Assembly: GCA_902547295.1 (NCBI GenBank)
Contig: CACCNJ010000011.1
Location: forward strand, 1-34,432
Source of the DNA: an uncultured SAR86 cluster bacterium
Lineage (GTDB): Bacteria; Pseudomonadota; Gammaproteobacteria; Magnimaribacterales; D2472
Direction: 5' to 3'
Length of the DNA stretch: 34,432 bases
Shown: positions 3,574 to 30,564 of the stretch, one piece after another
Layout: the number at the start of each line of letters is the position of its first letter
Position numbering within the stretch: the first letter of the stretch is position 1
Position numbers and translations under genes: made by a program
The notes under the pieces: model-generated
The model's input: only the letters and a program-made list of their open reading frames with translations
The model's database searches: none
Told to the model about the DNA's origin: nothing

Positions 3574-6168
3574 ATGTTAAAAAAATTAAACAAAATACGG
3601 AAGGAAATTACACCTTCGTTGATACCTGCGATATTACCATCTTTATCTACTTTTGCAGTAATAAATGCATCAGTTTTTAGTGGCTATATTGCTGCACAAA
3701 ATGCAACTATTGAAGAGGTTGTTGTTACGGCTCGAAAGAAATCTGAGAGTCTACAAGACGTGCCTCTATCTGTTAATGCATTGAATGAAGAAACTTTAGA
3801 GGAGAGAGGAATCAATGTATTTGAAGACTATCTTACTCAATTACCTGGTGTAACAGCTGGCGGCTCTGGCCCTGGTCAAAGTACTATATATATAAGAGGT
3901 CTTGCCTCAACGACACCGAATTTAACAACTGCTGGTGTTGCAGGCTTGGCTCCAAACGTTTCTTTCTATTTAGATGAGCAACCATTAGCTCAACCTGGAA
4001 GAAACTTAGACGTCTATGCAGCTGATGTTGCTCGTATAGAGGTTTTATCGGGACCACAAGGAACTCTGTTTGGTGCTAGTTCACAAGCTGGTGTTGTTAG
4101 AATGATTACTAACAAACCTAAACCAGGTGTTACAGAAAGTAACGTTGAAATTGAAACAAGATTTATGCCAGAAGGAGATACCGGCACTAAGCTTGAATTC
4201 ATGACAAACGTACCTTTAACAGATAAAACTACATGGAGATTTGTAGGCTATAGCGATAGAAGAGGTGGTTACATTGATCAAGTAGCTGGAAAAGTTGATC
4301 CTAGTATGTCAGCTCGTTTTAGAACAGCTGGTACAGTGAGAGAAAATGGATTGCCTGTGTCCTCAGGAAGAGCTGGTTTCCAAGCTGGAGCTGATCTTTC
4401 AGGTGTTACTTTCGCACCTACCAATGCGTTAATTGAAGATAACGTAAATGGAACTGAATATGAAGGATTCAGATCTTCTATTGGTCAAGAACTTGGAGAT
4501 AACTGGAATGCAACACTTGTGTATGCAGAACAAACAATTGAATCTGATGGAGTTTTCTTCGCTGATCCTAATTTAGGCGATTTAGAAATCCAAAGATATA
4601 GTGATGATCATATAAGTGATGAGTATGAAAATATGAGTCTTACATTAGAAGGATCTATTGGTGAGCTTGAAGCTGTTTATGCAGGTGCATATACAGACAG
4701 AGAAACAAATCAAATAGTAGATTACACCGACTATTTATTCGTTGGACAATACCTTCCTTATTATATTTGTGATTATTATGTAACTTATACATCATTTGCT
4801 CCTGGTGGAGTTCCAACAGGAAGTTGTGGAACAGCTGACTTGTTTGTAGATTCAACTACACATACTAATGTCGAAAGTCACGAGTTTAGAATTAATGCTC
4901 CAATAACTGATAAAATGTCTGTAACTGCGGGTGTGTTTTTAAGTGATACTGAGCTCATGGAGCTTAACTTATTTACTTATCCTGGATCACTAGCTAACGA
5001 TATTAATTATGCAGCTAATTATGCATTGACAGATATTTCAGTAACTGGAGACAGATCTGATAGTGGCAAATCAGCGGTAAGAGCTGGAGCTGGTTGGTTC
5101 TCAGCAGGACCATTCTCTGAGCCAGTAATATTCTTTAATGATATAAGAAGAACTGATGAGCAAAAAGGTGTGTTCGGTGAAGTTAATTATGCTTTATCAG
5201 ATACAGCTGAACTTACTTTAGGTGCAAGATGGTATGACATTGCTGTTGATTTTGAAGGTAGTGCAAACTCTTCTTTCGGTAACGGTTTTGGAAATCCAGA
5301 CGAACAGAGATTTGGTTCAAATTTATCTGTTCAATATGCTCCAGGTAATGCCAATGGGTATCCTGACAAAGCTGAAACTGATGGAGTTATTGGAAAAGCT
5401 ACAGTTTCATGGAATCCTGATGACGACATAATGTACTATGTTACATGGTCTGAAGGCTTTAGACCTGGTCTTTTAAATAGACCTGTTGGATCATCTAATG
5501 CTGATGGTTCATATGTTGTTAAACCTGAAGTTGATACCGATGAAATCACCAACTATGAATTTGGTTGGAAGACTATTTCTAAAGATGGTCAATTAAGATT
5601 TAATGGTAGCGCGTTCTATGTTGATGTAACTGGATTACAGAGTACTATCTTTGATCCAAGTATTGTTAACTTATTCTTCTCTGACAATGCAGCTGATGCA
5701 ACAATAAAAGGTGTTGAAGGAGACTTTACCTACTACACTGATGTTGAAGGATTGTCCGTTGCTGGTGCTTTCTCTTTCTTAGATACAGAAATAACTGAGA
5801 AATTAGTACCAACAGATGATGTTATTGTAGGTGAAGAGCTAGCATTTGCTCCTGGTATGCAAGGAAACATTAGAGTAAGACAAGAATGGGGAATGGCTGC
5901 TGGAAATGTTGGTCATTTACAAGTTCAATTTACATACTCTGATGACAGCTTTTCTGACATTATGGAACCAAATAAAGCAAGACAAGCTAGTTATAGTTAT
6001 ATTGACTTGAGAGCAGGTATCACCAATGATGATTTATCTGCTGAGCTTTATGTTGATAATGTTACTGATGAAAGAGCTGAAATAAGTAATACATTTGTCT
6101 TTGATAGACAACGTGTAGCTTATATTAGACCTACAACAATTGGTATTAGAGTTAAAAGAAACTTTTAA
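3574..6168 (+). CDS. TonB-dependent outer-membrane receptor
   Basis: The 864-residue protein has a basic N-terminus and a hydrophobic stretch ending near A41, read as a signal peptide. A TonB box follows (IEEVVVTA, 46-53), then the plug domain with QDVPLSVNAL and RIEVLSGPQGTLFGASSQAGVV. The rest is a large beta-barrel with repeated aromatic/glycine strands, ending in an outer-membrane C-terminal phenylalanine (IGIRVKRNF). Such receptors bind a substrate outside the cell and import it with energy from TonB-ExbB-ExbD. The substrate is not evident: no neighbouring siderophore, cobalamin or polysaccharide-degrading genes are seen. AGGGGA at 3564-3569 is a good ribosome site. A strong terminator follows, so this is likely a single-gene transcription unit after the leader. 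Confidence 0.95.
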   Translation: MLKKLNKIRKEITPSLIPAILPSLSTFAVINASVFSGYIAAQNATIEEVVVTARKKSESLQDVPLSVNALNEETLEERGINVFEDYLTQLPGVTAGGSGPGQSTIYIRGLASTTPNLTTAGVAGLAPNVSFYLDEQPLAQPGRNLDVYAADVARIEVLSGPQGTLFGASSQAGVVRMITNKPKPGVTESNVEIETRFMPEGDTGTKLEFMTNVPLTDKTTWRFVGYSDRRGGYIDQVAGKVDPSMSARFRTAGTVRENGLPVSSGRAGFQAGADLSGVTFAPTNALIEDNVNGTEYEGFRSSIGQELGDNWNATLVYAEQTIESDGVFFADPNLGDLEIQRYSDDHISDEYENMSLTLEGSIGELEAVYAGAYTDRETNQIVDYTDYLFVGQYLPYYICDYYVTYTSFAPGGVPTGSCGTADLFVDSTTHTNVESHEFRINAPITDKMSVTAGVFLSDTELMELNLFTYPGSLANDINYAANYALTDISVTGDRSDSGKSAVRAGAGWFSAGPFSEPVIFFNDIRRTDEQKGVFGEVNYALSDTAELTLGARWYDIAVDFEGSANSSFGNGFGNPDEQRFGSNLSVQYAPGNANGYPDKAETDGVIGKATVSWNPDDDIMYYVTWSEGFRPGLLNRPVGSSNADGSYVVKPEVDTDEITNYEFGWKTISKDGQLRFNGSAFYVDVTGLQSTIFDPSIVNLFFSDNAADATIKGVEGDFTYYTDVEGLSVAGAFSFLDTEITEKLVPTDDVIVGEELAFAPGMQGNIRVRQEWGMAAGNVGHLQVQFTYSDDSFSDIMEPNKARQASYSYIDLRAGITNDDLSAELYVDNVTDERAEISNTFVFDRQRVAYIRPTTIGIRVKRNF

Positions 6169-6251: not shown

Positions 6252-8255
6252 ATGGATCAATTTAAACTGGATATTGAGAGAGCTTCAAAAGCTATTAGAG
6301 ATAGCAGATTTGTTGAAGCGTTAAGTTTTCTTGAATCTAACTTAGCAAAAGATCCATATCACGTTGATAGCCTCTATTTTGCAGCAGTTTGCTCCAGATA
6401 TCTAAAAAACTATAAAGACTCTGAAAATTATCTTAATAACTTATTATCACAGGCACCTGATATGGGAAGAGCATATCAAGAACTGGGGCACCTTAATAAG
6501 GCTACTGGCAAAGAGGAAGAATCTATTTCCTATTACAGACAAGCATGCGAATTGAATCCAGCATTAATCTCTTCATGGAAATCTTTATTTAATTATTTTG
6601 TTAAAAAAAATAATAAACCTGCTGCAGATCACGCACATGAACAAATTAAAAAACTTGAATCACTTCCAAGTATTCTCCTATATATAAGTCAAATTTTAAA
6701 TGAAGGAAGGCTTGCAATTGCTGAACAAAAATGTAGAGAGTTTCTCAAAAAAAATCCAACAAACATTTATGCAATAACATTGCTGTCTGATATTGCAAAA
6801 AAATTTGGTTATTTTGATGATGCAGAAGTTTTGTTAGAAAATGCAGTTAAGTTAAGCCCAAATGATGGTGATGTAAGGATGAAGTATGCTCTAATTCTTA
6901 GACTTAAACAAAAGTTTACAAAGACTATGGAACAAGTAAACATCTTGTGTGAACAATTTCCTGATAACCTTTCTTATCAAGCTCAAAAAGCTAGTGAGAT
7001 AATGCAGAATGGTCAACATGCAGATGCAATAGATTTATTTGATAACATAATAGAAAAAAATCCATATAACTTTAGTGCATATACATCAAAGGGGCATGCA
7101 GAAAAAACACTAGGCAGAACTGATGATGCAATAAATAGTTATAAGTCATCCTATAAGATCAAACATGATCATGGAGAGGCATATTTCTCACTTTCAAATT
7201 TAAAAACTTATAAGTTTACCAGTGATGAAATAAATACTATGAGAACTCAATTAAAAAGACTTGATTTGACACTAAAAGATAAAGCCTATTTTCATTTTGC
7301 TTTAGCACAAGCATGTGAGGATATTGAAGAATATGATGAAGCTTATATCAATCTTGAAAAAGGAAATAAAATAAAAAATGAGCAAAGTAAATATACTATA
7401 GAAAAAATGGATAAGGAACTTCAAGCACAAATAGATGTTTGTGATGAGAATTTTTTTAAAAAGTTAGGAGACGGTGGATATGATTCAGATGATCCAATTT
7501 TTATCTTAGGTTTACCAAGAGCTGGGTCAACTTTAATAGAGCAAATACTTGCATCTCACTCAATGATTGATGGTACTCTTGAATTACCAAATATCTTATC
7601 TATGGCTCAAGGACTAAGAGGTGATGATATTTATGGAAATGAAGGGAATTATCCTAAAACGATGCAGTCCCTAACCTCAGAGAAAAGAAAAGAGTTAGGA
7701 AAATTATTTATAGATGATACTAGAATGCATAGAAAAGGTGCCCCTAGGTTTACGGATAAAATGCCTAATAATTTTCGTCATATTGGCTTAATTAATTTAA
7801 TTCTTCCAAATGCTAAAATTATTGATGCCAGAAGATATCCGCTAGATTGTTGTTTTAGTATGTTTAAGCAATTATTTGCACAAGGTCAAGAATTTACATA
7901 TGGCCTAGCAGAGGCTGGAAGCTACTATAACAGTTATGTAAAACTTATGGATCATTGGGATAAAGTCCTCCCAAATAAAATTTTAAGAGTAAACAATGAA
8001 GATGTAATAGATGATTTAGAGGGTCAAGTTAAAAGAATGTTAGATTTTCTCGAATTACCATTTGAAGAATCTTGTATAACATTTTATGAAACAGATAGAT
8101 CAGTAAGAACTGCTAGTTCTGAACAAGTTAGAAAGCCTGTAAATAAGTCAGGTCAGGGTCGTTGGAAACCCTATGCCAAAAACTTGGGAGCATTACTGGA
8201 AAATATAGATAATAATCTTCTTAAACCGGAGGATATTGCATTAATTAAGTCTTAG
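6252..8255 (+). CDS. TPR-repeat sulfotransferase
   Basis: This 667-residue protein has two parts. Residues 1 to about 390 are tandem tetratricopeptide repeats, with typical helix pairs such as ALSFLESNLAKDPYHVDSLY. Residues from about 410 form a sulfotransferase domain. Its 5'-phosphosulfate loop is LGLPRAGST at 419-427, and the 3'-phosphate region is DARRYPLDCCFSMFKQ. The C-terminal SEQVRKP...GRW block is standard for this family. The reaction would be sulfate transfer from PAPS to an acceptor that cannot be read from sequence; some homologues act on proteins, others on glycans or small molecules. There is no signal peptide, so it is probably cytoplasmic. It follows the receptor terminator by about 35 nt, and a paralogue ends at base 96. 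Confidence 0.9.
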   Translation: MDQFKLDIERASKAIRDSRFVEALSFLESNLAKDPYHVDSLYFAAVCSRYLKNYKDSENYLNNLLSQAPDMGRAYQELGHLNKATGKEEESISYYRQACELNPALISSWKSLFNYFVKKNNKPAADHAHEQIKKLESLPSILLYISQILNEGRLAIAEQKCREFLKKNPTNIYAITLLSDIAKKFGYFDDAEVLLENAVKLSPNDGDVRMKYALILRLKQKFTKTMEQVNILCEQFPDNLSYQAQKASEIMQNGQHADAIDLFDNIIEKNPYNFSAYTSKGHAEKTLGRTDDAINSYKSSYKIKHDHGEAYFSLSNLKTYKFTSDEINTMRTQLKRLDLTLKDKAYFHFALAQACEDIEEYDEAYINLEKGNKIKNEQSKYTIEKMDKELQAQIDVCDENFFKKLGDGGYDSDDPIFILGLPRAGSTLIEQILASHSMIDGTLELPNILSMAQGLRGDDIYGNEGNYPKTMQSLTSEKRKELGKLFIDDTRMHRKGAPRFTDKMPNNFRHIGLINLILPNAKIIDARRYPLDCCFSMFKQLFAQGQEFTYGLAEAGSYYNSYVKLMDHWDKVLPNKILRVNNEDVIDDLEGQVKRMLDFLELPFEESCITFYETDRSVRTASSEQVRKPVNKSGQGRWKPYAKNLGALLENIDNNLLKPEDIALIKS

Positions 8256-9035: not shown

Positions 9036-10733
9036 ATGAAATTCTTATTTATCTCAATCATATTAATAATATCAAATCCTATAAATGGATATGACAGGAT
9101 AACTGGTCTTGAGTTTGCTAGCCGATCTGAAGTAATTGCTACAAATGGGATGGCAGCTACCAGTCACCCACTTGCAACACAAACAGCCATTTCAATTCTT
9201 AGGGCTGGAGGTAACGCTATTGACGCTGCCATTGCAGCAAATGCTGTCTTAGGACTTGTAGAGCCAACCGGCTGTGGAATTGGAGGAGATTTATTTGCAA
9301 TAGTATGGAGTGCGGAAGATAAAAAGCTTTATGGTTTAAATTCTTCTGGTCCCGCTCCAAAGAAAATATCTATTGATAAGTTAAGAGAGGAAGGTATTGA
9401 TAAGATACCTCCTTATGGAGCTCTTCCTGTAACTGTTCCTGGGGCTGTTGCTGGATGGAATGCTCTTCATTCAAAGTTTGGAAGTTTAGATTTTGAATTA
9501 TTGTTTGATGATGCAATTAGTTATGCTGAAAATGGATTCCCAGTTTCTGAATTAATTGCTTATTACTTAGATAGATCTTCAGAAGTATTTAAAGATTATC
9601 CAAATTTTAAGACTATCTGGATGCCAAATGGTAAAACTCCTTCAAAAGGAGAGATCTTTAAAAATAAATTATTAGCAAATGATTACAGACTTATAGCGAA
9701 TTCTTATGGTAAAGATTTTTATCAGGGTACGATAGCAGAAAATATTGTAAAGTCAGTTAATTCACAAGGTGGATATTTCACTTTAAAAGACCTTTCAGAA
9801 TATAAACCTGAATGGATAAATCCTGTTTCTTCAAACTATAGAGGATATGATGTATGGGAACTCCCTCCCAATGGACAAGGAATTGCTGCATTGCAAATAT
9901 TAAATATATTAGAAAATTATGATATTAAAAAATTAGGCTTCAATAGTGCAGAATATATTCATCTTTTTACCGAAGCTAAAAAATTAGCTTTTGAAGACAG
10001 AGCTAAATATTATGCAGATATGAGTTTTTCTAAAGTGCCAGTCGACTATTTGATATCAAAAGGATATGCAAAGAAGAGAAATAACCTCATTAGTTTTGAT
10101 AAGGTTTTAAAATCTATTGATTCAAATAATCTTGAGGATGGCGATACAATTTATTTAACTGTGGCAGATAAATTTGGGAATATGGTTTCACTTATTCAAA
10201 GTAACTATAGAGGTATGGGATCAGGAGTAATTCCAAATGATTCTGGATTTATGCTTCAAGATAGGGGCGAGATGTTTAATCTTGACCCAACTCATAGAAA
10301 CTCCTTAGTGGGAGGCAAAAGACCATTTCACACAATTATTCCAGCCTTTATAACAAAAAACGGTGATCCATTTGTAAGTTTTGGTGTTATGGGAGGAGCT
10401 ATGCAGCCTTTAGGACATGCACAAATAGTAATAAACTTGATTGATTTTGATATGAATCTCCAGGAAGCAGGTGATGCACCTAGGTTTAGGCATGTAGGAT
10501 CATCTCAGCCAACTGGTGAGAAAATGACAGATGGAGGATTCTTGATTTTTGAGAATGGCTTTGATCAAAATGAAATTTCTAAAATTAAAGAAATTGGACA
10601 TAAAGTTGTCAATCAAAATGAAGATGATTATATGAAAGGAGCATTTGGAGGCTATCAAGCAATAATGATCAAAGAAGGTGTATTGTATGGAGCATCAGAA
10701 AGCAGAAAAGATGGCCATGCATCTGGGTATTAA
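9036..10733 (+). CDS. Gamma-glutamyltransferase (Ntn-hydrolase)
   Basis: The 565-residue protein has a signal peptide (MKFLFISIILIISNPINGYD), placing it in the periplasm. It carries the family blocks MAATSHPLATQTAISILRAG and GNAIDAAIAANAVLGLVEP followed by GIGGDLFAI. The autoproteolysis site is in GDTIYLTVADKFGN, where T371 aligns with the nucleophile Thr391 of E. coli Ggt. The precursor would split there into a large and a small subunit. It would hydrolyse or transfer gamma-glutamyl groups from glutathione and similar peptides. The local context (D-T-x-Y, then RGMGSG) looks more like the YwrD-type GGT-like branch than classical Ggt, so the substrate may differ. Length is normal for the family. 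The aminotransferase gene follows after 31 bp. Confidence 0.92.
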   Translation: MKFLFISIILIISNPINGYDRITGLEFASRSEVIATNGMAATSHPLATQTAISILRAGGNAIDAAIAANAVLGLVEPTGCGIGGDLFAIVWSAEDKKLYGLNSSGPAPKKISIDKLREEGIDKIPPYGALPVTVPGAVAGWNALHSKFGSLDFELLFDDAISYAENGFPVSELIAYYLDRSSEVFKDYPNFKTIWMPNGKTPSKGEIFKNKLLANDYRLIANSYGKDFYQGTIAENIVKSVNSQGGYFTLKDLSEYKPEWINPVSSNYRGYDVWELPPNGQGIAALQILNILENYDIKKLGFNSAEYIHLFTEAKKLAFEDRAKYYADMSFSKVPVDYLISKGYAKKRNNLISFDKVLKSIDSNNLEDGDTIYLTVADKFGNMVSLIQSNYRGMGSGVIPNDSGFMLQDRGEMFNLDPTHRNSLVGGKRPFHTIIPAFITKNGDPFVSFGVMGGAMQPLGHAQIVINLIDFDMNLQEAGDAPRFRHVGSSQPTGEKMTDGGFLIFENGFDQNEISKIKEIGHKVVNQNEDDYMKGAFGGYQAIMIKEGVLYGASESRKDGHASGY

Positions 10734-24197: not shown

Positions 24198-25430
24198 GTG
24201 TCATCTATATCTCTGAAATTAGGTTATAAATACCTTAGATCTAATAAAGGAGGTGCGTTTTCATTCACTACCTTATTGGCAGTAATTGGCTTATCAATTG
24301 GTATATCAAGTTTAATTGTTGTTACGTCGGTCATGAACGGCTTTGAAAAGGAACTTGAGGACAGGATTCTTGGTGTCATACCGCATTCAGTTATTAGTTC
24401 AGATGAACCAATCGATGACTATGAAAATCTTATAAATCAAGTCAAAAAAGATGCAAATATATTAGAGGCATCAACTTACATCAATACTCAAGGAATAATT
24501 TCATCTTCATATGACACCAGGGGTGTTTCTTTAATTGGAATCGATCCATTAAAAGAAAAAAATATGTCAATAATTCCAGATTATATGCTCGTTGGAGATT
24601 TAAATGATCTTAATGAGAATAATACAATTATTATTGGCTCCTTACTTGCTGCACAAATCGGTGCCTATATTGGTGATGAAGTTAACATAACTACCTCAGA
24701 TATAAGAACAACTCTTATTGGTTCTTACCCTAGATCTGTAAATCTTGAGGTAGTAGGCATATTTGAATTGAAGACTGAGATTGATCAATATCTTACATTG
24801 ATTTCACATTCAACGTCTCAAAAAATAAAAAATCTTAAGGCAAATCAAACAACCGGTATTAGGCTTAAAACAAATAATTTATTTACTGCAGATATAATTA
24901 CTGAGAATATTATTAATAATCTTGGTTCCAATAATTTAACATATTCATCTTGGAAAAATACTCACGGAACTTTATTTGAAGCAATTAAATTCGAAAAATT
25001 ATTAATAAGTTTAATGTTATTTTTAATTATAGCTGTCGCCTCAATATTAGTCTTATCAACTGTAGTAATGACAGTAAAATCTAAAGAAAGAGAGATTGGC
25101 ATCCTTTTAACGCTTGGAGCTAGCAATAAACAAATAGTCTTAATATTTTTTACACAAGGATTAATAGTAACCTTAATAGGTATTTTTGTAGGTATATTAT
25201 TGGGCTTTCTTTTAATATATAACCTCAACAATTTTATTTCTGTTATTGAAAACATACTTGATAGAAATCTATTAGAGGCATATTTTATAAATTATTTTCC
25301 GTACTACATAAATTTTGGTCAAATATTTTTGATATGCTTTTTTTCATTCTTAATTAGCCTTATATCTTCCTTAATTCCATCTTTAAGAGCTGTAAGACTT
25401 AATCCTGTGGAGATTTTAAGGCATGAATAA
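24198..25430 (+). CDS. lolC: Lipoprotein-releasing ABC permease (LolC/LolE, possibly LolF type)
   Basis: The 410-residue inner-membrane permease has one N-terminal helix (about 21-46, TLLAVIGLSIGISSLIVVTS), a large periplasmic domain, and three C-terminal helices (about 268-292, 315-343, 376-396). SVMNGFEKELEDRILG and SKEREIGILLTLGAS are characteristic LolC/E motifs. With LolD it extracts outer-membrane lipoproteins and hands them to LolA. The start is GTG, 3 nt after the aldehyde dehydrogenase stop. Only one LolC/E gene precedes lolD and none follows it, so the permease may work as a homodimer, as the single-subunit LolF of Francisella does. It overlaps lolD by 8 nt. Confidence 0.9.
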   Translation: MSSISLKLGYKYLRSNKGGAFSFTTLLAVIGLSIGISSLIVVTSVMNGFEKELEDRILGVIPHSVISSDEPIDDYENLINQVKKDANILEASTYINTQGIISSSYDTRGVSLIGIDPLKEKNMSIIPDYMLVGDLNDLNENNTIIIGSLLAAQIGAYIGDEVNITTSDIRTTLIGSYPRSVNLEVVGIFELKTEIDQYLTLISHSTSQKIKNLKANQTTGIRLKTNNLFTADIITENIINNLGSNNLTYSSWKNTHGTLFEAIKFEKLLISLMLFLIIAVASILVLSTVVMTVKSKEREIGILLTLGASNKQIVLIFFTQGLIVTLIGIFVGILLGFLLIYNLNNFISVIENILDRNLLEAYFINYFPYYINFGQIFLICFFSFLISLISSLIPSLRAVRLNPVEILRHE

Positions 25431-26103
25431 ATTAATCTGTAATGATGTTTGCAAATCTTTTAGGATCGGTAACGATAACTTGAATGTATTAAATAATATC
25501 AATTTAACTATTGAACAAAATGATACTGTTGCAATAACAGGTGTTTCTGGCGCTGGAAAATCATCTTTACTACAAATTCTTGCTGGATTAGATAAACCTT
25601 CTTCAGGAAATATTTTCTTAGATGATAAAGATTTTTCATTACTCTCTAATAATGCTCTAAGCAAGATTAGATTAGAAAACTTCGGATTCGTTTATCAATT
25701 TCATCATTTACTTGATGATTTATCTGTTGAAGAGAATATTTTTATGCCTTTAATGTTAAAAAATACCTTCAACAGTTCAAATAAGATTATTGCAAAAGAT
25801 CTTATGAAAACATTAGATATTTACAAAAGAAAAGATCATTTACCTTGGAAATTGTCTGGAGGTGAGAAGCAAAGAGCCGCCTTAGCAAGGGCAATTATAA
25901 ATAATCCAATGTTTTTATTTTTAGATGAGCCTACAGGAAATTTGGATATAGAAAACTCAAACAACATTCAGAATTTAATTTTTGAAATATCAAAAAAATA
26001 TGGAGTTGCTTTAATTACAGCGACTCACGATAATGAGTTTATTAAACTATTTGATAGGGTATATAGATTAGAGAATTCTAAATTGAGTATTAGTAATGAA
26101 TGA
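25423..26103 (+). CDS. lolD: Lipoprotein-releasing ABC ATPase LolD
   Basis: The 226-residue ATPase has Walker A GVSGAGKSS (40-48), a Q-loop in VYQFHHLL, which is characteristic of LolD, signature LSGGEKQRAALARA from 144, Walker B FLFLDEPTG (164-172) and an H-loop ATHD. It powers lipoprotein release by the upstream permease. The start overlaps the permease stop by 8 nt (ATGAATAA), and its own stop overlaps exbB by 8 nt (ATGAATGA), so all three are translationally coupled. Length is typical. Confidence 0.94.
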   Translation: MNKLICNDVCKSFRIGNDNLNVLNNINLTIEQNDTVAITGVSGAGKSSLLQILAGLDKPSSGNIFLDDKDFSLLSNNALSKIRLENFGFVYQFHHLLDDLSVEENIFMPLMLKNTFNSSNKIIAKDLMKTLDIYKRKDHLPWKLSGGEKQRAALARAIINNPMFLFLDEPTGNLDIENSNNIQNLIFEISKKYGVALITATHDNEFIKLFDRVYRLENSKLSISNE

Positions 26104-26695
26104 ATTTATTTCAGCTGGCGGACCATTTATGTGGCCATTATTGGCATGCAGTGTACTAATAATAACTATTTCGATCGAGAGATCTTGGTTTCTTCAAAAC
26201 AGATTAGTTTCACCTAAAGGCTTATCTAATCAAATAATGAATTTAGTAAAAAATGATTTAATGTCAAAAAAACAATCACTTGAAATTTCAAATCTTTCAT
26301 CTCTTGGTTTTTTACTTATAAATTGTCTTAAATACAAAGATCTTCAACGTGAAAATCTGGAGTCTAAGATAGAAGAGAAAGCTATTGAAGTTAAATATAG
26401 CTTAGAAAGGAATCTTACTATGCTCGGAACACTGGCGACCATAAGCCCTCTTTTAGGATTGTTAGGCACTGTAGTAGGAATGATTACAGCATTTACTGGC
26501 TTAACAGAAACTTCTGGAGCTAATCCTGATTTACTTGCTGCGGGAATCTCACAAGCATTAATTACTACTGCGTTTGGGTTATTAATTGCTGTGCCAGGGC
26601 TAGTGCTTCACAAATATTTTGAACAAAAAATCAAATACCTATTGATAAACCTTCAAAAAGAAGTTTCTGGCTTTATTGATGTTATTAACAAATGA
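26096..26695 (+). CDS. exbB: ExbB/TolQ family proton-channel protein
   Basis: The 199-residue protein has three membrane helices. One is near the N-terminus (FMWPLLACSVLIITISIE), and two follow the cytoplasmic loop. The family core is TISPLLGLLGTVVGMITAF followed by GISQALITTAFGLLIAVPGL. It forms the pentameric scaffold of ExbB-ExbD, which turns proton flow into force for TonB. Gene order next to lolD and lpxK matches exbB2 of Pseudomonas. No tonB or tolA is in the window, so the partner is encoded elsewhere. It overlaps exbD by 4 nt. Confidence 0.9.
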   Translation: MNEFISAGGPFMWPLLACSVLIITISIERSWFLQNRLVSPKGLSNQIMNLVKNDLMSKKQSLEISNLSSLGFLLINCLKYKDLQRENLESKIEEKAIEVKYSLERNLTMLGTLATISPLLGLLGTVVGMITAFTGLTETSGANPDLLAAGISQALITTAFGLLIAVPGLVLHKYFEQKIKYLLINLQKEVSGFIDVINK

Positions 26696-27096
26696 AATTT
26701 ATTTCAGAAAACAAATCTTCATTTTCAATAGAAATCACTCCTTTGATAGATATTGTATTTTTATTAGTAATATTTTTTGTAGTTACTTCAAAAGTAGGAG
26801 ATTCTCAATTCCTCTCTTTAGAGCTACCAAAAACTGAATCATTTCAATATAAAACTGTCCAAAATTCTAATGAGATTGTAATAATTAAAAATGGGTCCAT
26901 ATATGTTAATGATAAGATTTTTGATATAGATAATGTAAATGATCTTGAACAAGCTATCTTTGAATTAGAAAATAATGGAGATGCATTAATATTGAGCGCT
27001 GAATCTGATAGTTTACATGTCTGGGTTGTTACTGTTATGGATTTATTAAATAAATATGGTTTTAATGAGGTTCAAATAAGAACTATTGAAAAATGA
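26692..27096 (+). CDS. exbD: ExbD/TolR family protein
   Basis: The 134-residue protein has a short cytoplasmic N-terminus and one helix, ITPLIDIVFLLVIFFVV (residues 15-31), with the essential proton-carrying aspartate at D20 (equivalent to ExbD D25). The periplasmic domain that follows has the usual ILSAESDSLHVWVVTVMDLL fold marks. It pairs with the preceding ExbB. Both ends overlap neighbours by 4 nt (ATGA), coupling it to exbB and the msbA-lpxK fusion. Confidence 0.92.
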   Translation: MKFISENKSSFSIEITPLIDIVFLLVIFFVVTSKVGDSQFLSLELPKTESFQYKTVQNSNEIVIIKNGSIYVNDKIFDIDNVNDLEQAIFELENNGDALILSAESDSLHVWVVTVMDLLNKYGFNEVQIRTIEK

Positions 27097-29855
27097 AAAC
27101 AGGAAGTTTAAGAAGGCTGCTTGGTTATACGTTTAGATATAAGTGGTCATTTTTTATAAGTGTTGTAGGCTTTATAAGTTTTGCTTTTGCTGATATCGCA
27201 GCTGTTGAATGGATAAGAAGAATAATCGGATTCATAAACTCAGAAGAAGAAAATTTTAGTTCTTTTTTAGCACTTTCTTTAATTTTGATAGCCCTTGGAA
27301 GAGGTGTTGGTTTTTTTGTTGGGAACTACTTCATGTCTAGAGTTGGTTTCGGCATTGTTCATGATTTACGATCAGAATTATTTCAAAAGCTACATGATCT
27401 TCCAAAATCATATTTTGATGCAAATCAGTCTGGACAACTAATAAATAGAATTACATTTACAACAACACAAGTTTCAGGAGCAGCCTCTAATGCAGTTAAA
27501 ACTCTCATAAGAGAAGGCTTCCTATTAATTGGTTTATTTGTATATTTGCTTATATTAAATTTTAAACTCACCCTTTTGTTAATCGGTACAGCTCCACTTA
27601 TAGCACTTATAGTTTATGTAGCAGGAAAGCGTTTAAAAAAACTTGCTAAGAAAATACAAACAGCAATGGGAGATGTTACTCATATTGCGTCTGAAGCTGT
27701 GGATGGACATGTTGAGATTAAAAGTTTTAATGCTCAAGAGTATGAAAATTCTAGATTCTTTGAAGCAAATACTTCTAACAAAAATCAAAATTTAAAACTT
27801 GAAGCTACAGGCAACATGGCAACACCAATTATTCAAGTTCTTGTATCAATTTCATTATCAATAGTTGCATATTTCGCTCTAGGCGCTCAATTAGGTATAT
27901 CACTTGACGCGGAAACTTTTGTTGCTTTTTTTACTGCCGCAGGTTTAATGGCTAAGCCAATAAGGCAATTATCTAATATCAATATGATTGTTCAGAAAGG
28001 CTTAGCAGCTGCTAGTGAAATTTTTGAACAACTTGATCAAGAAATTGAAAGTGATCTTGGAGATAATAAAGATATAATTGAAGGAAATATTGAATTCGAT
28101 AACGTTAACTTTTCTTATGAAACTGGCCCCCAAGTATTAAGTGATATCTCATTTTCTATAAATAAAAATGAAACTGTTGCCATTGTTGGTAAGTCAGGAT
28201 CTGGAAAGTCAACTATAGCCAATTTAATTCCAAGATTTTATAACCATTCATCTGGTAATATATTAATTGATGGAACACCGATTAGTGAATTTTCACTAGA
28301 CTACCTTAGATCTCAAATATCCATTGTTAATCAATCTCCTTCTTTATTTAACGATACTATTTCAAAGAACATTGCATATGGTGATGATGAAATAGATGTA
28401 GACAAACTAAAAGAATCAGCAAAATTATCAGGCTGTTCTGAATTCATTGAAGATTTGCCAGACGGTTACGAATCAGATATTGGAGATGATGGTGTATTGC
28501 TTTCAGGCGGTCAAAGACAAAGACTTGCTATTGCAAGAGCTTTTTATAAAGATTCACCAATAATAATTCTTGACGAAGCAACATCTGCACTAGACACCGA
28601 ATCAGAATTAATCGTCCAAGAAGCATTAGAAAAATTAATAATTGATAGAACAACTATTGTTATTGCTCACAGATTATCAACAATTGAAAACGCATCTAAA
28701 ATCATTGTTCTTGATAATGGATCTATTGTAGAAACTGGAACACATTCAGAATTAATTGAAAATAAAGATATTTATCATTCTTTATATAAGAATAAATTTG
28801 AAGATTCACCTGAAGCACAAAGCAGAACCTCAAAATCTGTTCAACTTTTCATGCCAGAATACGAGGATGAGGATTCAACAAGTTTTGTTGTAGATAGTTG
28901 GTATAAAAAAAGTTTATGGCTTTATTTACTTTATCCTTTTTCTCTTATTTTTTCATATTTAACCACTAGAAGAAGAAAAAGATATCTTAATAATAAAATT
29001 GAATCTTATAAATCTAAAGTCCCAATTATAGTTGTTGGAAATTTAACTATTGGAGGGACTGGAAAAACACCACTTGTTAAGTACATTGTTAGTGAATTAA
29101 AAAATAGAGGATATAGGCCAGGAATTGTAAGTAGAGGTTATGGGGGAAAATTTAAAGAAACTCTTAAAGTATCAACCGATACCCCTGTAAAAGAAACAGG
29201 AGATGAAGCCCAAATTTTAGCTAAGTTAGATGTTCCATTTTATATAGATAAAAATAGAGTTAGGGCTGTAAAAAAACTTACTAAAAATCATGAGTGTGAT
29301 GTAATAATTTCTGATGACGGACTACAACATTATAAAATGGGTAGACACATTGAAATTGCAGTTATAGATGGCAAAAGGCGTTTTGGGAATAACTTAACTT
29401 TTCCTGCCGGACCACTAAGAGAAGCTATTAAAAGAATAAATACAGTTGATTTTATTGTTAATAATAGCGGTCCTACAAATGAGGATGAATATTTAATGAA
29501 TATTAGTCCAACAAAGTTTGTACATCTTAAATCAGGAAAATCATACTCAATTGAAAATTGGCCAATGCATAAACAGGTGCATGCCGTTGCTGGTCTTGGA
29601 AATCCAGGCAGATTTTTTGATCTTTTAGATAAACTAGGTTTTGATATCATTCGTCACCCATTTCCTGACCATCACAATTTCTTATCAAGTGATATTTTTT
29701 ATTTAGATCATTTACCAATAGTAATGACAGAAAAAGATGCATCAAAATGTAAAGATTTTGATAACAATAAAATTTGGTATCTTAAGATTGATGCAGATGT
29801 TAATAATAAATTTATTGACAATCTAGACAAAAAACTAAAGTCAATTTCTCAATAA
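27093..29855 (+). CDS. msbA-lpxK: MsbA-LpxK fusion: lipid A flippase plus tetraacyldisaccharide 4'-kinase
   Basis: A single 920-residue frame holds two complete enzymes. Residues 1 to about 572 are MsbA: six N-terminal helices, Walker A GKSGSGKST (366-374), LSGGQ (470-474), Walker B IIILDEATSALD and AHRLS. It flips lipid A across the inner membrane. After an acidic linker (about 573-606) comes LpxK, about 314 residues. It has a membrane anchor LWLYLLYPFSLIFSYL, P-loop GNLTIGGTGKTP (649-660), SRGYGGK, GDEAQIL, SDDGLQHYKM and PDHH, matching E. coli LpxK. It adds the 4'-phosphate that yields lipid IVA. In E. coli msbA and lpxK are adjacent but separate genes. Methionine 587 (ATG 28851) could allow internal initiation of LpxK, though no ribosome site precedes it. 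Confidence 0.93.
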   Translation: MKTGSLRRLLGYTFRYKWSFFISVVGFISFAFADIAAVEWIRRIIGFINSEEENFSSFLALSLILIALGRGVGFFVGNYFMSRVGFGIVHDLRSELFQKLHDLPKSYFDANQSGQLINRITFTTTQVSGAASNAVKTLIREGFLLIGLFVYLLILNFKLTLLLIGTAPLIALIVYVAGKRLKKLAKKIQTAMGDVTHIASEAVDGHVEIKSFNAQEYENSRFFEANTSNKNQNLKLEATGNMATPIIQVLVSISLSIVAYFALGAQLGISLDAETFVAFFTAAGLMAKPIRQLSNINMIVQKGLAAASEIFEQLDQEIESDLGDNKDIIEGNIEFDNVNFSYETGPQVLSDISFSINKNETVAIVGKSGSGKSTIANLIPRFYNHSSGNILIDGTPISEFSLDYLRSQISIVNQSPSLFNDTISKNIAYGDDEIDVDKLKESAKLSGCSEFIEDLPDGYESDIGDDGVLLSGGQRQRLAIARAFYKDSPIIILDEATSALDTESELIVQEALEKLIIDRTTIVIAHRLSTIENASKIIVLDNGSIVETGTHSELIENKDIYHSLYKNKFEDSPEAQSRTSKSVQLFMPEYEDEDSTSFVVDSWYKKSLWLYLLYPFSLIFSYLTTRRRKRYLNNKIESYKSKVPIIVVGNLTIGGTGKTPLVKYIVSELKNRGYRPGIVSRGYGGKFKETLKVSTDTPVKETGDEAQILAKLDVPFYIDKNRVRAVKKLTKNHECDVIISDDGLQHYKMGRHIEIAVIDGKRRFGNNLTFPAGPLREAIKRINTVDFIVNNSGPTNEDEYLMNISPTKFVHLKSGKSYSIENWPMHKQVHAVAGLGNPGRFFDLLDKLGFDIIRHPFPDHHNFLSSDIFYLDHLPIVMTEKDASKCKDFDNNKIWYLKIDADVNNKFIDNLDKKLKSISQ

Positions 29856-29856
29856 C

Positions 29857-30564
29857 ATGATTAAAAATACATATATTCTTATACCAGCTAGAATAGGTTC
29901 TACAAGATTAAAAAATAAACCTCTTATCGACCTTGATGGAAAATCTATTATTCAAAGAGCTATAAGTAATGCTCTTAGTATTACAGAAAATGCTTATGTT
30001 GCTACAGACTCAGATCTTATTAAAAGTAACGTAGAGCAAATTACTAATAATGTAATCATGACATCTTCTAACCACATATCTGGCACGGATAGAATTTACG
30101 AAGCTGCTAATAAGTTAGATTTAAATGATAAAACACTAATTCTAAATCTTCAGGGTGATGAGCCATTTATCCCAAGTGAATTAGTATCGAAAGTGATAGG
30201 CGATTATTATGATAATGATTGCGACGTAATTACAGTATCAACTCCAATAAAATCTGAGAACGAACTTACTAATCCAAATTGTGTTTTAGTTGAAACAGAT
30301 ATTAAAAATTATGCGGTTAATTTTGTTAGAGCTGGAAATATTAAAAATCCAAGAAGACATCTTGGAATATATGGATATTCATTTAAAACATTAAGTGAAT
30401 TGATAAAATTAAAACCAACAAATAGTGAATTATCTTTAAACCTAGAACAGCTTAGATTTCTTGAAAATAACTACTCTATTTTTGTTTCACACTTTGATAA
30501 AGAAATTCCTAATGGTATAGATACTCAGGATGATGTTGATAATGCACTTATGTATTTGAAATAA
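29857..30564 (+). CDS. kdsB: 3-deoxy-manno-octulosonate cytidylyltransferase
   Basis: The 235-residue enzyme activates Kdo to CMP-Kdo for lipid A core assembly. IPARIGSTRLKNKPL is the nucleotide-binding N-terminus. ATDSDLI, the SGTDRIYEA block and NLQGDEPFIP (metal and sugar site) follow, then RRHLGIYGYS and NGIDTQDD. The loop between the FVRA block and RRHLGIYGY is about a dozen residues shorter than in E. coli KdsB, and the usual SRA reads VRA. The overall length is correspondingly a little under the usual ~248. It starts 1 nt after the msbA-lpxK stop and shares one base with the murB ATG. Confidence 0.93.
   Translation: MIKNTYILIPARIGSTRLKNKPLIDLDGKSIIQRAISNALSITENAYVATDSDLIKSNVEQITNNVIMTSSNHISGTDRIYEAANKLDLNDKTLILNLQGDEPFIPSELVSKVIGDYYDNDCDVITVSTPIKSENELTNPNCVLVETDIKNYAVNFVRAGNIKNPRRHLGIYGYSFKTLSELIKLKPTNSELSLNLEQLRFLENNYSIFVSHFDKEIPNGIDTQDDVDNALMYLK

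Follow-up and report, generated by a model that had tools for sequence, protein, structure and literature searches.

Introduction

In Escherichia coli K-12, the lipid A flippase MsbA and the lipid A 4'-kinase LpxK are encoded by two separate, adjoining genes in the order msbA-lpxK, which overlap by 4 bp. In SAR86 bacteria, which are abundant in the ocean, the two families are joined in one gene. This gene is described here from a 34,432-nucleotide stretch of DNA of an uncultured SAR86 cluster bacterium (GenBank assembly GCA_902547295.1, contig CACCNJ010000011.1, positions 1 to 34,432 of the forward strand), referred to below as the window. An initial annotation of the window had proposed an in-frame MsbA-LpxK fusion and had named the neighbouring E. 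coli genes as the unfused counterpart; both points stand. The window shares with E. coli the two families, the gene order, the ATPase residues and, at most positions, arginine or lysine in the basic pocket. It differs in that both families lie in a single 920-codon gene.

The LpxK of PDB entries 4ehw and 4ehx is from Aquifex aeolicus, according to the available text of PMC6286764. In a search with a 331 aa piece, the homology extends over residues 24-309 (E = 2.9e-26), and the Walker A motif, the D/E pair, the Walker B motif and the histidine are shared. The A. aeolicus enzyme is free-standing, whereas the window LpxK is the C-terminal domain of an ATP-binding cassette (ABC) exporter.

Other lipid A genes are fused or linked in other lineages. 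In the available text of PMC3087551, lpxC and fabZ are fused in Bacteroidetes and others. As in SAR86, adjoining genes are fused across whole lineages, there at the branch point of lipid A and fatty acid synthesis, but the genes are different and no transporter is included. In the waaA-lpxK clusters of the same text, lpxK likewise lies with a further late gene of the lipid A pathway, but these genes are clustered rather than fused and encode consecutive reaction steps. The main text of PMC3087551 contains neither "fusion" nor "MsbA", and that of PMC11582366 contains no "lpx", "msba" or "fusion". In the available text of PMC10328246, "msbA-lpxK" denotes the E. coli operon. No description of an MsbA-LpxK fusion was found among the best-ranked open-licence PMC literature, and protein databases may list such sequences without comment. 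The gene joins domains of two known families in a fusion that is order-wide, recurrent and apparently undescribed.

Results

The fused gene and its active sites

The fused gene is a single open frame with an ATG start and 920 codons followed by a stop, without an internal stop (Table 1). The Pfam matches on the fused protein are ABC_membrane (residues 21-285), ABC_tran (349-498) and LpxK (611-915, E = 3.4e-96). Both halves pass their family cut-offs. The MsbA half scores 629.2 bits against TIGR02203 MsbA_lipidA (residues 7-570, cut-off 602), and the LpxK half scores 243.3 bits against TIGR00682 lpxK (cut-off 91.95) and 322.6 bits against PF02606 (cut-off 27). The narrower MsbA model NF008381 (PRK11176) is not reached (526.9 bits against its own cut-off of 867); this model is presumably tuned to enterobacterial MsbA. 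The MsbA half keeps the exporter order of a membrane domain followed by a nucleotide-binding domain (NBD), with the Walker A motif, the signature, the Walker B glutamate and the H-loop.

Judged from the alignments, the active-site residues of both halves are retained, in agreement with the initial annotation. Residues were counted in 144 fused frames, reduced to 106 that are distinct in their last 500 residues (97 from SAR86, nine others), and the MsbA residues in 56 fused rows with sufficient N-terminal length. The Walker A lysine, signature serine, Walker B aspartate and glutamate, and H-loop histidine of MsbA are present in all 56. In E. coli numbering, Q424 is found in 55 of these rows and is unread in one, and S383 is serine or threonine in all. 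The positions of E. coli R78, R148, R296 and K299, which we take to be the basic lipid A pocket residues with a lipid-binding role, hold arginine or lysine in 55, 52, 49 and 56 of the 56 rows, respectively; in the window they are R70, R140, K288 and R291.

In the LpxK half, E. coli K61, T62, D108, E109, D147 and D148 are retained in 105 or 106 of the 106 rows, and their window counterparts are K658, T659, D704, E705, D741 and D742. From sequence correspondence, this set is taken to match the residues given as catalytic for the A. aeolicus enzyme in the available text of PMC6286764 (K51, T52, D99, E100, D138, D139 and H261). H860 is invariant in a 20-row alignment and aligns with H261 in the PDH motif of the A. 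aeolicus enzyme.

Table 1. Features of the fused gene and its immediate neighbours in the window.
Feature	Position	Strand	Basis
exbD-like gene, upstream, not fused, 4-bp overlap with msbA start	26692..27096	+	open reading frame (ORF) list, Pfam
msbA-lpxK fused gene	27093..29855	+	open frame, family matches, order-wide conservation
MsbA part, residues 1-568 (membrane domain and nucleotide-binding domain)	27093..28796	+	Pfam/NCBIfam matches
MsbA-part sites: Walker A K372, signature S471, Walker B D494/E495, H-loop H526			residue numbers of fused protein
Linker, residues 569-600, 32 aa, acidic, boundary approximate	28797..28892	+	alignment, low predicted local distance difference test (pLDDT) score, constant length
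LpxK part, residues 601-920	28893..29852	+	Pfam/NCBIfam matches, alignments, model
LpxK-part sites: Walker A K658/T659, D704/E705, Walker B D741/D742, H860; helix 609-633 (model)			
kdsB (CMP-Kdo synthetase), downstream, not fused, start 1 bp past fusion stop	29857..30564	+	ORF list, Pfam, NCBIfam

Distribution within SAR86

An LpxK match is present in 158 of the 203 genomes of the SAR86 order, including 81 of the 107 genomes of the window's family and 27 of the 34 of its genus. These matches span all 22 genera and four families. Among the 40 genomes with at least 90% completeness and at most 5% contamination, 35 have a match. The 45 genomes of the order without a match include the other five of these 40, in which the absence may reflect either gene loss or a missing contig.

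The junction is fused in 154 of the 158 genomes. For 93 of these, the sequence itself shows the two halves in one frame, and the other 61 are judged by frame length alone. A separate, intact LpxK occurs in none of the 158. In 150 genomes, the gene either is a single frame 892-966 residues long or is matched over its full length with no stop separating the halves; 146 of these come from the 150 rows of the order-wide listing, and the other four are G187, G192, G195 and G199. Three more genomes (G029, G053 and G101) have a fused gene that is truncated by the contig end, and in G077 the frame breaks within MsbA while the junction is fused. The remaining four are uninformative: in G033, G138 and G196 a contig end leaves only part of LpxK, and G135 has many stops throughout the frame. 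Other deposited SAR86 records also carry the fused frame, and the closest are 97-99% identical in the best segment (residues 1-919).

In the available text of PMC11582366, the SAR86 order Magnimaribacterales consists of four families and 22 genera, which equals the family and genus counts found here. The tree constructed here (described below) pairs family f1 with f4 and f2 with f3, the same pairing pattern as that of the families in that text. The codes f1-f4 presumably correspond to its families.

Distribution outside SAR86

Beyond SAR86, the fusion recurs but is rare. A stop-free, full-length fusion is present in at least seven of 365 non-SAR86 gammaproteobacterial genomes, from six families (G266, G287, G465, G560, G247, G380 and G395, all read as frames). 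These come from a sample of 369 genomes, four of them SAR86, that was searched with the fusion alignment; split matches would escape detection. At least 36 further gammaproteobacterial rows have MsbA and LpxK close together in the same frame with one or more stops between them. A 950 aa LpxK frame in G566 was considered as a further fusion and rejected, as its MsbA and LpxK are in different frames. In a phylum-wide draw of 398 genomes, the only stop-free, full-length fusions among the matches listed are those of the window's genome and G287; the window's match starts 18 bases ahead of the ATG and therefore carries one flagged TGA. Of the four genomes in the order of G287 (family f89), three are fused and G410 has separate genes. 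The fused loci L152, L180 and L181 and the separate locus L182 of G410 form a natural set for the timing and route of fusion.

In a tree of MsbA and LpxK (54 rows, 893 columns), the 13 SAR86 rows form one clade (99* in the Shimodaira-Hasegawa-like approximate likelihood ratio test). The tree requires five changes between fused and separate overall, of which SAR86, with G247 (family f49) alongside, accounts for one. A single clade of all 22 fused rows is rejected at a cost of 154.5 log-likelihood units (approximately unbiased test, p = 4.3e-8), in a test that rests on a quick tree with long branches. The starred branches by themselves force no more than one origin for the non-SAR86 fusions. The deep branches are weakly supported, and G247 is placed beside SAR86 at 94, unstarred. 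It is possible that the fusion predates SAR86 and is shared with the G247 lineage. Losses of the fusion are indistinguishable from gains in this tree. The separate rows were picked from genomes with adjoining genes, so the sample is biased to lineages that are able to fuse.

Linker and structure model

The two halves are joined by an acidic linker, as had been proposed, with eight acidic and two basic residues over about 32 positions. Its length is 32 in the window and in all 20 of the close SAR86 relatives compared with it. Across 96 SAR86 rows, the H-loop motif of MsbA and the Walker A motif of LpxK are 113-128 residues apart, with a distance of exactly 123 in 64 rows. The sequence of the linker is variable across SAR86.

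In these 21 sequences, the median ratio of nonsynonymous to synonymous substitution rates (dN/dS) is about 0.26 in the linker, 0.045 in the membrane domain, 0.08 in the NBD, 0.13 in the LpxK helix and 0.08 in the LpxK core; 125-182 of the 210 pairs were usable per region and dS is near saturation (medians 1.1-1.6). By this ratio, the linker is under constraint as protein.

A separate LpxK starting at Met587, as the initial annotation had considered, is not supported, since this methionine is unconserved, many linkers lack a start codon and SAR86 rows lack a Shine-Dalgarno-like site. Among 96 of the 97 SAR86 rows (L154 was left out, its motif not being found), 30 have a linker that contains none of the codons ATG, GTG and TTG, 58 lack an ATG there, and none has a start codon with a Shine-Dalgarno-like 4-mer upstream. 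Start codons were also counted in seven of the nine non-SAR86 fused rows (L151 and L211 were left out). All seven have a start codon in the linker, five have an ATG, and one has a Shine-Dalgarno-like 4-mer before the start. From these counts, an internal start in the SAR86 linker appears unlikely.

In the AlphaFold2 model, whose overall quality is poor, the linker region (residues 567-611) has a pLDDT below 50. The same weak model places a helix at residues 609-633, where the sequence looks like the beginning of a separate LpxK; this helix is a candidate for the amphipathic membrane helix expected at the N-terminus of LpxK.

Lipid A pathway in SAR86

WaaA and the late acyltransferases were searched for in 56 SAR86 genomes, those at least 88% complete together with the window's own. 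WaaA (PF04413) is present in 51 of the 56, with only a fragment in G072, and LpxL/M homologues (PF03279) are also present in 51. The window's genome has waaA and two acyltransferase homologues. Both families are missing from G124, G132, G134 and G135, whose assemblies are 88-92% complete. In the window's genome and others, waaA and an acyltransferase gene lie side by side, so the loss or breakage of one contig region would remove both.

In family f2, one LpxL/M-type homologue is found in 10 of 18 genomes (for example G112, G125 and G133), two in four genomes (all of genus g12) and none in four. In families f1, f3 and f4, 37 of 38 genomes have two or more. The lipid A of some f2 members may carry fewer secondary acyl chains, as far as homologue counts indicate.

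Genomic context

The gene run in the window is lolC-lolD-exbB-exbD-msbA/lpxK-kdsB-murB. The exbD/msbA and lpxK/kdsB junctions are tight as well, with a 4-bp overlap and a 1-bp gap, yet only msbA/lpxK is fused in the window. In most of 16 loci compared, fused and separate versions have the same neighbours, with exbB and/or exbD upstream and kdsB, for a synthetase of cytidine monophosphate-3-deoxy-D-manno-octulosonate (CMP-Kdo), downstream. The window's genome is 1.05 Mb in 23 contigs.

Between lolD and msbA, exbB/exbD are present in the window (26096-27096), L066 and L157 (families f1 and f2). No exbB/exbD match was found between these genes in the three f3/f4 loci examined (L154, L168 and L170). 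The gene at 24198-25430, next to lolD, encodes a LolC/E-type permease with a listed GTG start that barely exceeds the TIGR02212 cut-off (364.6 against 362.45), and no second FtsX-type permease was found among the 30 window proteins scanned. Elsewhere in the window, a gene at 6252-8255 encodes a 667 aa protein with tetratricopeptide repeats followed by a sulfotransferase domain (PF13469). It lies between a TonB-dependent receptor gene (3574-6168) and a gamma-glutamyltranspeptidase gene (9036-10733).

Discussion

The architecture of the fused gene is directly observed, and its purpose is what we infer from it. The favoured explanation, to which a probability of roughly 60% is given on sequence grounds, is a bifunctional protein that fixes kinase and flippase at 1:1, with two LpxK tethered per MsbA dimer. 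The initial annotation had also offered a fixed stoichiometry or location as possible functions. Loss of the stop between the adjoining genes would predate the last common ancestor of SAR86, and the fusion would have been retained since. The product would be an MsbA half-transporter whose cytoplasmic C-terminus bears a complete LpxK 4'-kinase, with its own N-terminal helix, on a linker of about 32 residues. MsbA functions as a dimer, so each transporter would bear two kinases at the inner leaflet beside it. Both activities would operate in the fused protein, and the benefit would come from the fixed ratio and the co-location. With kinase and flippase locked 1:1 in the same membrane patch, the number of kinases would be tied to the number of flippases, so that flux through the kinase step would scale with export capacity.

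In the available text of PMC4412817, E. coli LpxK is modelled as rate-limiting under pathway regulation and as flux-controlling. The same text names the disaccharide substrate of LpxK as the source of the feedback on LpxC degradation and puts the number of LpxK in E. coli at an estimated 2.1 per MsbA. Depletion of LpxK leads to toxic accumulation of its substrate (available text of PMC5555675).

Several points weigh against the favoured explanation. No LpxK match at all was found in five of the 40 SAR86 genomes with a completeness of 90% or more (for example G016, G045 and G066). The linker and the LpxK helix are the least constrained parts of the protein, which fits a passive tether. The AlphaFold2 model is poor (mean pLDDT 65.1, predicted template modelling score 0.37), so the packing of the domains in it is uninformative. 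With several reactions between the two activities, a tether offers no obvious gain in catalysis. Because the genes adjoin, often in the same frame, loss of a single stop is mutationally cheap and could be neutral.

The last point leads to the strongest alternative, that the stop was lost once in the SAR86 ancestor, was harmless and was never restored, the tether having no function. This neutral or streamlining fixation is a live rival, although a less probable one. SAR86 genomes are small, the window gene has junctions of 1-4 bp on both sides, MsbA and LpxK lie close together in one frame, separated by stops, in the gammaproteobacterial rows noted above, and the linker sequence varies within SAR86. 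Yet the equally tight exbD/msbA and lpxK/kdsB junctions are unfused, and no listed SAR86 frame exceeds 966 aa. The linker length is conserved within SAR86. SAR86 with G247 is just one of the five changes in the tree, and two of the fused non-SAR86 genomes are about 4 Mb.

A second alternative is direct channelling, in which MsbA receives lipid IVA, or a form of it with few modifications, directly from the kinase and a simpler lipid A is exported, as the initial annotation had suggested. In the available text of PMC6286764, LpxK is the last absolutely required step and E. coli is viable when exporting lipid IVA, but MsbA is reportedly less active on early intermediates. The reduced acyltransferase complement of family f2 would suit this explanation. 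With WaaA and LpxL/M homologues each found in most of the SAR86 genomes searched, and both in the window's genome, the kinase and flipping steps are expected to be separated by Kdo transfer and late acylation, and a simpler lipid A or direct hand-over is unsupported. The CMP-Kdo synthetase gene also adjoins the fusion. Channelling is highly improbable.

An assembly or sequencing artefact, or an internal linker start yielding a separate LpxK, is the least credible explanation of all, even though the named SAR86 records are mostly metagenome or single-cell type assemblies by title: relatives are not always separate, as an artefact would have it, but the opposite, the linker evolves under constraint, the start-codon counts disfavour an internal start, and recurrence of the same frame across the order and in other deposited SAR86 records excludes chance or error.

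By the gene-fusion argument, in which proteins fused in one lineage tend to interact in others, an MsbA-LpxK interaction is predicted in ordinary laboratory bacteria. The repeated, independent fusions might mark a real functional pairing, with LpxK and MsbA forming a physical complex in bacteria generally, one that has become covalent in SAR86 and several other gammaproteobacterial lineages; this wider proposal is speculative and rather doubtful at present. If it is true, the complex would be a membrane-bound unit for lipid A assembly and export, in which the number of kinases is tied to the number of flippases. The two-activity protein of about 100 kDa would be a tool for structural work on the position of LpxK relative to MsbA, and the fusion provides a natural system in which to ask how lipid A synthesis keeps pace with export.

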